Positions 8,281-51,452 of a DNA stretch of 64,000 nt are shown in pieces. The stretch spans positions 62,001-126,000 of the forward strand of contig NZ_VBTZ01000004.1 in NCBI RefSeq assembly GCF_005771425.1, written 5' to 3'. The notes beneath the pieces are model-generated. The model was not told where the DNA came from. It made no database searches and saw only the letters and a list, made by a program, of their open reading frames with translations. A program made the position numbers and the translations under genes. The DNA comes from Methylocystis sp. B8 (GTDB taxonomy: Bacteria > Pseudomonadota > Alphaproteobacteria > Rhizobiales > Beijerinckiaceae). Each line of letters opens with the position of its first letter. The first letter of the stretch is position 1.

Positions 8281-8404
8281 TTGAGCTGATCGCTCGCGCA
8301 AGTCCGGGTACGGCGCGGTTGGCGCTCTTTCCACAATTCCTCTAATCAGCGCGATGACAGCGGCGGTTATGGCGCGTCACGTCGCCCGAGCGGTTTTCAC
8401 GACA

Positions 8405-11400
8405 ATGAACGACGACAGCCCGAAAGGGCCGGACTATTCGAAGAGCCTCTATCTGCCGGTCACGGATTTTCCGATGCGCGCCGGCCTGCCGCAGCGCGAG
8501 CCGGAAATCCTCAAGCGCTGGGAGACGATCGGCCTAGAAAAGAAGATGCGCGAAGCCGGCGCAGGCCGACCAAAATTCACGCTTCACGACGGGCCGCCTT
8601 ACGCGAATGGCAATATTCATATCGGCCATGCGCTCAATAAGATCCTCAAGGATCTCGTGACGCGCAGCCAGCGCATGACGGGCAAGGACTGCGTCTATGT
8701 GCCGGGCTGGGATTGCCACGGCCTGCCGATCGAATGGAAGATCGAGGAAGAGAATTACCGCGCCAAGGGCAAGCAGAAGCCGGACTTCTCCCATCCCGAC
8801 GCGATGATCGCCTTCCGTCGCGAATGTCGCGCCTATGCGCAACATTGGCTCGACGTTCAGCGCGAGGAATTCAAGCGCTTAGGAGTAGCCGGCGAATGGG
8901 ATCATCCCTATTCGACGATGGCCTATCCGGCGGAAGCGACGATCGCGCGCGAGATCATGAAATTCGCGGCGAACGGCTTGCTCTATCGCGGCTCGAAGCC
9001 GGTGATGTGGAGCGTCGTCGAAAAAACGGCATTGGCTGAAGCTGAAGTCGAATATGAGGATTATACGAGCGATCAGGTATGGGTGGCGTTTCCAATCCCG
9101 CGCGGCGCCGAAGGGGAGCTGAGCGACGCGCGCATCATCATCTGGACGACGACGCCCTGGACGCTGCCCGGCAACCGCGCGATCTCCTTCTCGTCGAAAA
9201 TCGATTACGGACTTTATCGAGTCACTCATGCGCCGGATGGCAATTGGGCGCTGCCTGGAGCGAGTTTCGTCATCGCTGACAAGCTGGCGAGCGATGTGTT
9301 CAAGGCGGCCAAGGTCGACGGTTATGAGCGTTTGCACGACGTGCCCGCCGCGATGCTCGCCGAATTGATCTGCGCGCATCCGCTCGCGCATCTTGGCTAT
9401 GACTTCGACGTGCCGCTTTTCGATGGCGAACATGTCACTGACGATACGGGCACGGGCTTCGTGCATACGGCGCCGGGCCATGGCCGTGAGGACTTCGACA
9501 TCTGGATGGCGCATGCGCGCGCGCTGCAGTCGCGCGGCATCGATTCTCGGATTCCCTATGCGGTCGACGAGGACGGCTTCTATACGAAGGACGCGCCGGG
9601 CTTTGAAGGAAAGCGCGTCATCACCGAGAAGGGCGACAAGGGCGACGCCAATGAGGCGGTGATCGCCGCGCTGATTCAATCCGGCAATCTCATCGCGCGC
9701 GGAAAATTAAAGCACCAATATCCGCATTCATGGCGCTCGAAGAAGCCGGTGATCTTTCGCAACACGCCGCAATGGTTCATCGCAATGGATAAGCCGTTCG
9801 GCGCGCCGCCCTACCTCCCCCTTGCGGGGAGGTCGGCCGCCGAAGGCGGTCGGGTGGGGGGCCAAGATGTATCACCCCACCCCACATCGCTTCGCGATGC
9901 GACCCTCCCCGTCAAGGGGAGGGAGAAAGCATCCTTCGAGACGCGCGCTTCGCACGCTCCTCAGGATGAGGTTCCTGGGAATCTACCGACTCTGCGCGAG
10001 ATCGCGCTTGAAGAAATTGCGCGCACGACATGGACGCCGGCGGCGGGAGAGAACCGCATCCGCGGGATGATTCAAAATCGCCCCGACTGGGTCGTGTCCC
10101 GCCAGCGCGCCTGGGGCGTGCCGATCGCGGTCTTCGTCAAGAAGAATACCCATGCGCCGCTCGTCGACGCGCACGTCAACGCACGCATCATCGAGGCTTT
10201 CGAGAAGGAAGGCGCCGACGCCTGGTATGAAGCGAACGCCGCCGAACGTTTTCTCTCGCCCGAATATAGACCCGAAGATTACGAGAAGATCGCCGACGTT
10301 CTCGACGTCTGGTTCGATTCAGGCTCGACGCACGCGTTCACGCTCGAAGACCCCATTCATTTCCCGATGCTCGCCGGCATCCGCCGCAAGCGCGACGGCG
10401 GCGAGGACGAGATCATGTATCTCGAAGGCTCCGATCAGCATCGTGGCTGGTTTCATTCCTCTCTTCTCGAAAGCTGCGGCACGCGCGGCCGCGCGCCTTA
10501 CGACGCCGTGCTGACGCATGGCTTCGTGCTCGACGAGAAGGGACGCAAAATGTCGAAGTCGCTCGGCAATGTCGTCGCGCCGCAAAAAATCATCGCCGAT
10601 TCCGGCGCCGACATCATGCGTCTCTGGGTCGCGGCGTCGGACTATGCCGACGATCTGCGCGTCGGTCCCGAAATTCTCAAGACCTTCGTCGAGCTTTATC
10701 GCAAGCTGCGCAACACGCTGCGCTGGATGATCGGCGCGCTTGCGCATTATCAGCCAAACGATGATGCGGCGATCAGCGAGGCGGGAGAACTCGAACGCCT
10801 CATGCTCCATCGTGTGCATCAGCTCGACGAGTCGATCCGTGCGTCATATGCGACATACGACTATAAGCGCGTCGTCGCGCTGCTCACCCATTTCATGACG
10901 AGCGATCTTTCGGCCTTCTATTTCGACGTGCGCAAAGACGCGCTCTATTGTGATCCGCCATCAAGCGTCAAACGCAAGGCGGCGCTCGCGACCATCGATA
11001 GGATCTTCCGCGGCGTCACGACATGGCTTGCGCCAATTCTCGTCTTCACGGCCGAGGAGGCGTGGCTGTCGCGTTATCCGAATGGGCAGTCGGTGCATCT
11101 CGAACATTTTCCGACCGTTCCCGACGCATGGCGCGACGACGCGCTTGCGGCCAAATGGGAGAAGATCCGTAAGATCCGCTCCGTCGTCACCGGCGCGCTC
11201 GAAATCGAACGCGCGCAAAAACGCATCGGCTCTTCGTTAGAGGCGGCGCCGATCGTCTACATCTCGGACGATTCATTGCGCGCAGCGCTCGATGGCGTCG
11301 ATTTCGCCGAAATCTGCATCGCCTCGGACATCCGCGTTCTCCCGGGGGAAGGCCCGCCGGAGGCGTTCCGACTGCCGGAAGCGCCCGGCGTCGCCGTGGT

Positions 11401-11554
11401 TCCGCAACGCGCCGCCGGGGTCAAATGCGCGCGCTCGTGGAAATATTTCGACCCCGCGACGGCGGATCGAGATTTTCCCGACGTGACGCCGCGCGACGCG
11501 CAGGCGTTGCGCGAACTTGTCGCGCTTGGCCGCTGGAGCGGGGTAGGCTCTTAA
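8405..11554 (+). CDS. ileS: Isoleucyl-tRNA synthetase with an internal repeat-derived insertion
   Basis: The class I synthetase charges tRNA-Ile. The HIGH signature is at about residues 72-75 ([12 protein letters not shown]) and KMSKS at 715-719, separated by the CP1 editing domain. The C-terminal KCARSW motif replaces a full zinc finger, as I recall for rhizobial IleS proteins. I choose the ATG at 8405 ([18 protein letters not shown]) because family proteins start close to this motif; an ATG at 8354 would add 17 residues. The protein (1049 residues) is longer than usual because about 61 residues are encoded by repeat sequence at 9803-9985, between AMDKPFG and TLREIAL. The frame stays open throughout, so the gene is probably functional. 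Confidence 0.95.
9803..9985. repeat. Two intergenic palindromic elements inserted in frame within ileS
   Basis: The stretch combines two element types. The first (about 9811-9925) has CTCCCCCTTGCGGGGAG (9815-9831) at one end, CTCCCCGTCAAGGGGAG at the other, and GGTGGGG/CCCCACC arms between. The second (about 9929-9971) carries CTTCGAGACGCG and CTCCTCAGGATGAGG, the same motif as the elements at 21401-21508 and 51337-51452. The translation is low-complexity and unlike any synthetase segment. Length 183 bases is a multiple of three. Exact borders are estimates from where the conserved synthetase sequence stops and resumes. Confidence 0.8.
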
Positions 11555-12982
11555 GTGAACGTTCTTCTCGCTTTTCTCGCCAATACGATCGTCAATTTCA
11601 TCATCGGCCTGACGGTGGCGAAATTTCTCGGCCCCGAGGAATACGGCCGCTTCGCGCTCGCCTTCTCCATCGCCGTCGTCGTGCAGACGGCGCTCTATGA
11701 CTGGCTGCGTCTTTCGGCGACGCGTTTTTATTCGAAGCGCACGCGCGACAAGGAGCCAGTCGTACGCTCTACTCTCGATGCGTCCTTCATCGCGGTCACG
11801 CTTTTTCTCGGAACGGCGACGGGAATTTATGCGCTGATCGGCCCGCCGCTCGACTTCGAAACCAACCTCATACTGCTGGCGCTACTCACAGCGGTCGCTA
11901 ACGGACTGTTTGACTATTGCACGGCTCTGGTGCGCGCGCGCTTTCATGACCGCGCCTATGTGCGCCTGATGCTCGCCAAAAATGCGCTGGCGCTCGTGCT
12001 TATCGGCGGCGGCGCCTTTATCTTTCATTCGGCTGCCGTGGCCCTCGCGGGTGGAATTGCAAGCCTGTTCGGCACGGTCGTTCTTGGCCGTCGCGCGCTT
12101 CTCGACCCCGGCGCCGATATTTACGCAGCTTCGAGTCAGAATGCGCGCGCGCTCGCAGCATACAGCGCGCCGATTGTGGCGGCTCATCTTCTCTATCAGG
12201 CCATGCCGCTAGCGGCGCGTTCGATCGTCGCGAGCGTCTTCGGTTTCGCCGAGACCGGCCAGTTCGCGCTCGCCTATGATCTTGGCGTGCGCGCGGTGCA
12301 GGCGCTCGGTTCGGCCCTCGATGTTCTTCTCTTTCAGATCGCCGTCGCGGCGCATGAACTTCACGGCGTCGATCGCGCCAAGGAGCAGATCGCGCGCAAC
12401 ATGGGCATCGTCGTCGCCTTTCTGTTGCCAGCCTGCGCCGGACTCTGGTTTGTCATGCCGTCGATCGAAGCCTTGATCGTTCCGGCGCAATATCGTGGTC
12501 CGTTCGGCCATTACCTCGGCCTGCTCTTGCCCGGCCTCTTCGCAATGGGCGTCATTCTCTTTGGCGTCAATCCGGTGTTTCAGATCGAAAAGAAGACGAC
12601 GCCGCTCATTGTCGCGGCCCTTGCGGCGGTCGCCTTCGGATTGGCGTTGCTCTTCATTTTGCCCTGGGGCGAGGACGCCTCCAATCTCGCCATCGCGCAG
12701 GGCGGCGCCTATATTGCGGCGCTTGTCGCGACCGTCTATTTCGCGTTGCGCACGCAGCCCGTTTGGCCGTCGTTTTGGGACATCTTCGCGGCGCTTGTCG
12801 CGACGGGCGCGATGTCGCTTGCCCTTACCCCGCTTCGCGAGATGACGCCGGGCCTTCTCACGCTGATCGCGCAAATCCTTGTCGGCGTCGCCGTTTATGG
12901 GCTCCTGACCGTCGCTTTCAACATCGCAGGGCTCGGCGATCTCGTCGCGTCCTTGGTCGGCCGTCGGTTCGTCCGCCCGTGA
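11555..12982 (+). CDS. Polysaccharide flippase-like membrane protein (Wzx/MOP superfamily)
   Basis: The 475-residue protein has about 12-14 membrane segments and begins with NTIVNFIIGLTVAKFLGPEEYG, the usual opening of O-antigen or lipid-linked oligosaccharide flippases. Such proteins move undecaprenyl-linked sugar units across the inner membrane. The GTG start follows the ileS stop directly (TAA then GTG), so translation is probably coupled. No glycosyltransferase or Wzy gene lies next to it, so the polysaccharide it serves cannot be named; manC, a sugar-nucleotide gene, is 35 kb away. It is an odd operon partner for ileS. Confidence 0.8.
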   Translation: MNVLLAFLANTIVNFIIGLTVAKFLGPEEYGRFALAFSIAVVVQTALYDWLRLSATRFYSKRTRDKEPVVRSTLDASFIAVTLFLGTATGIYALIGPPLDFETNLILLALLTAVANGLFDYCTALVRARFHDRAYVRLMLAKNALALVLIGGGAFIFHSAAVALAGGIASLFGTVVLGRRALLDPGADIYAASSQNARALAAYSAPIVAAHLLYQAMPLAARSIVASVFGFAETGQFALAYDLGVRAVQALGSALDVLLFQIAVAAHELHGVDRAKEQIARNMGIVVAFLLPACAGLWFVMPSIEALIVPAQYRGPFGHYLGLLLPGLFAMGVILFGVNPVFQIEKKTTPLIVAALAAVAFGLALLFILPWGEDASNLAIAQGGAYIAALVATVYFALRTQPVWPSFWDIFAALVATGAMSLALTPLREMTPGLLTLIAQILVGVAVYGLLTVAFNIAGLGDLVASLVGRRFVRP

Positions 12983-21400: not shown

Positions 21401-21508
21401 TCCTCATCCTGAGGAGCTCGCGTCTCGAAGGACGAGGAAATCGCCGCGCACGCTGTCCGCCCTCGCGCTTCGAGACGGCTCCTGCGGAGCCACCTCAGCA
21501 TGAGGGCG
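21401..21508. repeat. Inverted repeat element between rpsP and rimM
   Basis: The element has a left half CCTCATCCTGAGGAGCTCGC then GTCTCGAAGGACGAGG, and a right half CCTCGCGCTTCGAGACGG with GAGCCACCTCAGCATGAGGG, so the two ends are imperfect inverted copies. The same family occurs at 51337-51452 and, as one half, inside ileS at 9929-9971. Transcribed from the minus strand it would fold into a long hairpin between two genes of the translation operon. Confidence 0.8.
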
Positions 21509-51336: not shown

Positions 51337-51452
51337 CCCTCATCCTGAGGAGGCGGCAGAGCCGCCGTCTCGAAGGAAGAGGGCGCGTGCCCATTTTCCT
51401 TGCCCTTCGAGACGCGAGTTTCGATCGCTCCTCGGGATGAGGAAAATGGCGT
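51337..51452. repeat. Inverted repeat element after trpB
   Basis: The left part CCTCATCCTGAGGAGGCGGC with GCCGTCTCGAAGGAAGAGGG and the right part CCTTCGAGACGCGAGTTTCG with GCTCCTCGGGATGAGG form imperfect inverted ends. It belongs to the family at 21401-21508. It fills the space between trpB and the convergent acyltransferase gene and could act as a transcription-stopping hairpin. Confidence 0.8.

Follow-up and report, generated by a model that had tools for sequence, protein, structure and literature searches.

The window, a 64,000-nucleotide stretch of the genome of Methylocystis sp. B8, contains ileS, the gene for isoleucyl-tRNA synthetase (Table 1). The first in-frame ATG, at 8354, gives an open frame of 1066 aa, and relatives start at the site equivalent to the ATG at 8405. 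Counted from the latter, the frame is open over the whole 1049-residue protein, as a sequence-only reading of this DNA had stated, and the product scored as IleS (TIGR00392, 764.9 bits; cut-off 621.4). The genome gave six IleS-type matches, and no second full-length IleS was found among the two listed, which were ileS itself and a weak match (E 4e-19). In bacteria, lspA commonly follows ileS; in the window its place, directly after the ileS stop, is taken by a membrane protein. In a Hyphomicrobiales MAG (L086, 3793-7407) the ileS frame continues without a stop into lspA-like sequence, giving 1205 aa, either a fusion or a sequencing error.

Table 1. Features of the window, A-type copies elsewhere in the same genome, and loci with long IleS loops other than the 36 Methylocystis genomes.
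Feature	Position or locus	Strand	Basis or remark
ileS, isoleucyl-tRNA synthetase, 1049 aa from ATG 8405	8405..11554	+	Open frame and family profile
In-frame insert, about 61 codons (residues about 467-527), 5' of TLREIAL	9803..9985	+	Alignment of relatives
Full A-type palindromic element, mirrored hairpins	9811..9925	+	Inverted repeats and own-genome copies
Half B-type palindromic element	9929..9971	+	Many own-genome copies, several as inverted pairs
Membrane protein reading like a polysaccharide flippase	11555..12982		Directly after ileS stop
Weak B-related match	21402..21437	-	81% identity, E 4e-4
B-type element pair	51337..51442		Match elsewhere in window
A-type copies in own genome	C1:23173, C1:206414, C12:226681, C26:88952		Own-genome search
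Long loop, Methylocystis MAG	L070		Loop reading
Long loop, Methylosinus Sm6, B-like	L067		Loop reading
Long loops, Rhodoplanes, GTCATTCCGGG palindrome	L089, L097		Loop reading
Long loop, Pseudorhodoplanes MAG	L085		Loop reading
Long loop, Rhodopseudomonas palustris MAG	L137		Loop reading
Long loops, other loci	L056, L075, L086, L091		Loop reading

The ileS insert is a multicopy palindromic element of its own genome, lying in frame in a conserved gene and missing from some orthologues. The proposal that intergenic-type palindromic repeats lie in frame inside ileS was borne out: the 183-nt insert matched at least 44 places in the 3.41-Mb genome, ileS itself counted (best 40 of 71 candidates scored), and its RNA folded better than all of 200 dinucleotide shuffles (z -4.1). 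The related elements announced at 21401 and 51337 were also recovered, the first as a weak match; no frame with coding-like codons on both sides is open across the second. A simple scan of the insert for a terminator or promoter found none. Own-genome matches to the B, C and D elements defined below numbered at least 38, at least 10 and 11, respectively, overlapping those of the insert (for B and C, 40 candidates were scored and ileS itself was among the matches). Counting copies within coding regions had been suggested, and here the outcome was divided: none of 45 other repeat sites sampled in this genome was mid-gene, and further host genes were found in congeners. Four of the 45 were at most 36 codons away from where an open frame ends. 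The idea of repeats scattered through this genome's coding genes was accordingly rejected, as were two candidate coding sites (L148 and L177), both outside better-scoring frames on the opposite strand.

We then read the same loop in 36 of 37 genus genomes (G028 had no ileS-type match), in 14 of 24 order-mates and at 80 named loci, of which 10 duplicated others and were dropped, leaving 120 IleS rows. From MDK to TLR the loop had 30 or more residues in 25 of the 36 Methylocystis genomes, exactly 6 residues in five (G003, G008, G013, G015 and G020) and fewer than 30 in the remaining six. The frame was open in all 36, with no stop flagged. By reading, without clustering, six palindromic families appear to occupy the 25 long loops: A or A plus half-B (9), B (6), C (5), D (2), E (1) and F (2). 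The sequence-only reading had asked whether close relatives lack residues about 467-527 and had regarded a homologous segment in most of them as evidence against insertion. The former was true of relatives with a short loop and failed for those with a homologous or different element; the latter came half true by our reading, with an A-type segment in 9 of 36 genomes, another family of at least 30 residues in 16 and a shorter loop in 11. Similarly, the setting had been described correctly as an essential synthetase of a rhizobial-type genome, and the event is not a lone one, many families being present in the same loop. Among the remaining 84 loci, 10 had loops of at least 30 residues (Table 1). 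Long loops were found in isolates (L060, L063, L065, L067 and L089) as well as in MAGs.

Assemblers can be misled by repeats, and an intergenic repeat might have been joined to ileS in this way. This is hardly credible, since the same A plus half-B composite is present in G027, where the insert is 90.6% identical, and isolates assembled in long contigs have A or another element in frame as well. Once ileS was masked, matches to DNA outside the gene were obtained for 34 of 35 long loops at E 1e-4, compared with 1 of 35 ileS control pieces of the same length; the database (175 loci, 1.27 Mb) includes own-genome stretches chosen for their copies of A-D, so that matches for these families are partly by construction. 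For L027 (family E), L067 (B-like) and L056, copies of the loop were found within their own flanking DNA. Support for family F as a repeat is weak (one match at 8e-5 for L028, none for L029).

The variation is concentrated at one place. At a single alignment position, 59 of the 120 rows had 8 or more extra residues, and the next internal length-variable site, near residue 235, had far fewer such rows. Elements begin 0 to 9 residues past MDK (by eye), which argues that the loop, rather than one nucleotide sequence, is the target. Class-wide, the flanking matches on both sides were listed for 34 of 288 other genomes, spaced at most 24 nt apart, and the Staphylococcus aureus enzyme (1FFY) aligned without extra residues at the loop. 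Two observations concern other parts of the protein: IleS of L031 (G016) has about 28 extra residues at about 235-263 in the editing domain, a second and milder length-variable site, and that of L056 (G037) has two more internal insertions, one of which is a repeated palindrome resembling its main-loop element.

Element family and loop length vary freely among close relatives. On a quickly built tree of 45 IleS rows from which the loop had been removed, element type required at least 22 changes (mean of shuffled assignments, 30.6), a figure that is not a count of insertions because recombination of ileS is likely; the number of unrelated families is a firmer floor. For example, the sister of the window gene (L015/G036; 99% support, 93.2% nucleotide identity outside the loop) carries a D element. 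In G030 (L032) a second palindrome is nested inside a B element, and a copy of this composite is present in the window genome (C24, about 149.5 kb; 80% over 180 nt). A tandem duplication, KSIASGFIAMDK, accounts for part of some loop lengths and was found alike with A, B, C and D alleles. A shorter palindrome occurs in the same loop in two genera, Methylocystis (L035 and L036) and Methylosinus (L077, with ends GGACCGCG...CGCGGTCC).

Could a single ancient insertion have diverged into the present families, or been converted into them by related ectopic copies, with no repeated capture? A mirrored two-hairpin layout is common to A, C, D, E and F, and junctions are shared within A, within B and within C, which suggests one origin for each of these three families. 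Nevertheless, A, C and D have no sequence relationship with B or the Rhodoplanes element, the families begin at different places in the loop, and short loops occur in several lineages. We therefore regard a single ancient insertion as unlikely.

Codon-position patterns were used to examine the insert as protein-coding sequence; the p-values given ignore uncertainty in alignment, tree and recombination. Among nine A alleles, changes at codon positions 1, 2 and 3 numbered 32, 33 and 54 (p 0.004), or 0.58, 0.60 and 0.98 per column compared with 0.24, 0.14 and 1.05 in the flanks. Six B alleles gave 11, 14 and 27 (p 0.004). Three C alleles gave 7, 2 and 7, which was not significant and showed no third-position excess. 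In four ectopic A copies read in the same phase the counts were 23, 29 and 13, a third-position deficit. Pairwise dN/dS for eight A alleles was 0.41 in the insert and 0.10 in the flanks. These patterns suggest that families A and B, but not C, are translated under weak purifying selection, and the insert in the window ileS is probably translated. B and C inserts were less diverged than flanking third positions, which suggests recent spread or else constraint.

Elements that ribosomes bypass exist in other systems, and the strong hairpins within an essential gene might point to bypass or to removal from the RNA. That the element escapes translation is very improbable, given the open frame in all 36 genus loops and a third-position excess in A and B that is absent from ectopic A copies. 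The same hairpins, together with the weak purifying selection on A and B, might instead reflect a selected role, in which RNA structure sets the pace of the ribosome at a domain border or the peptide modulates IleS. Against such a role, the loop is only 6 residues long in five congeners, hairpin excess is lacking in several of the shorter loops (e.g., L034 and L037), and close relatives differ freely in both family and length; we find it quite unlikely.

The explanation that we favor, and consider likely, is that palindromic repeats of the bacterium's own genome lodged in ileS, are translated as a tolerant disordered loop, and have been replaced over time. Non-autonomous repeats of mostly intergenic families would have come to lie in the gene, and the loop would tolerate both length and sequence, such that any element keeping the frame survives. 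Later events would include renewed occupation by unrelated elements, shortening, tandem duplication and reshuffling between species, the A plus half-B composite of the window being an apparent mosaic of such reshuffling. Once translated, an element would evolve as codons under weak purifying selection. An AlphaFold2 model (48 sequences, mean pLDDT 76.9) predicts no structure in the loop: residues 468-525 had pLDDT <50, lower than any other stretch, and lacked secondary structure, although low confidence alone is weak proof of disorder because other segments, including 195-219 and 437-457, were also <50. We take the loop to be the point at which the chain leaves the CP1 editing domain and re-enters the catalytic core. 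Entry may have occurred by transposition by some enzyme, or by copying and recombination. The REP-type transposase Y1_Tnp (PF01797) was found in 14 of 61 genomes (12 over cut-off) and had no match in the window genome, and was rejected as a mobiliser there. Mirrored hairpins were seen in the elements, and in the short-loop alleles inspected no target-site duplication was identified.

Genus-wide peptide searches of 39 genomes, after which 20 places chosen for their long frames were examined, revealed further host genes, and the idea that ileS is the sole host in the genus was rejected. Among the matches listed, A- or B-type elements lie in frame inside CobN (L262, L263, L264 and L267), DnaE2 (L265, L266 and L281), LigD (L268-L270) and PBP1C (L271-L274) of congeners. 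One protein per set was scanned against families and the rest were grouped by eye through matching flanks; PBP1C scored 460.7, below its NCBIfam cut-off of 494.2, with three Pfam domains over theirs. Compared with the mean of 60 shuffles, folding was stronger in all 14 host-gene stretches (z -2.1 to -7.6). In ileS the left half of A has a reading phase different from that in the other host genes. At L275, L276, L278 and L280 the element lies upstream of the recognised domain and not within it, and L277, another of the 20 places, had no family match.

These observations raise the possibility, which we offer tentatively, that palindromic repeats act as a permanent reservoir of new protein segments in Methylocystis and, in part, across Hyphomicrobiales, with the IleS loop a docking site re-occupied by unrelated families, at least four more host proteins (CobN, DnaE2, LigD and PBP1C), and some segments under protein-level selection and being domesticated. 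It is the re-occupied loop and the multiple hosts that are of interest, and not the single insertion. Because sequence-unrelated families, most with copies elsewhere, share one loop in a genus where short-loop alleles persist, the question of hotspot versus old insertion becomes testable in culturable free-living bacteria. The alleles also amount to a naturally occurring set of loop variants of a single essential enzyme, suited to measuring the cost of a translated repeat.

This kind of event is already known from Rickettsia palindromic elements and from intragenic REPs. According to one report, R. japonica isoleucyl-tRNA synthetase (RJP_0691) carries a 144-nt RPE-7, and different RPE groups occupy one site in different Rickettsia species, with hotspot versus common origin left open (PMC3767692). 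Both systems place palindromic repeats in frame within conserved genes and share PBP1C as a host; the Methylocystis hosts differ in being free-living methanotrophs, and the comparison is by description, not by element sequence. Rickettsia had been cited as the known case and is not the only one: another paper describes GTAG/CGTC REPs inside ORFs of several free-living bacteria, with DnaE2 and tRNA synthetases (in X. oryzae, E. litoralis and S. alaskensis) among the hosts, and two Xanthomonas species that have different REPs at nearly the same position in recB (PMC3733652). These REPs resemble our elements, by description, in lying within ORFs and in their tRNA synthetase and DnaE2 hosts, and the Rhodoplanes insert L089 contains CGTCATTCCGGG, resembling a CGTC-type REP. 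In further reports, Wolbachia palindromic elements, Neisseria Correia, enterobacterial ERIC and Coxiella QMITE also form in-frame fusions (PMC2229807, PMC5896051). They are likewise short inverted-repeat elements supplying protein residues, a likeness of description and not of sequence; several, as described there, have terminal inverted repeats and target duplications, whereas none were found at the Methylocystis loop. In the literature searched, with supplements and many subscription papers outside its scope, no report was found of this IleS loop or of coding palindromes in Methylocystis. Relative to that literature, two features appear new: the genus in which the repeats occur, and the presence of unrelated repeat families in a single IleS loop.

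No long insert was found at the Methylocystis loop in other type-2 IleS genomes among the rows listed. Four genomes, taken as Rickettsia-like from their size, GC and insert peptides, had inserts of roughly 30-50 residues, differing from one another, in another loop of type-2 IleS (EAIYLGL...SVHL), and for these genomes identity of the Rickettsia loop with ours was rejected. There, L241, L242, L244 and L246 carry different repeat-derived inserts in one loop of the C-terminal part. In some Rickettsiales-like genomes (e.g., G356, G377 and G415) about 560-670 nt separate the IleS matches near residue 380, which suggests a large insertion at that position.
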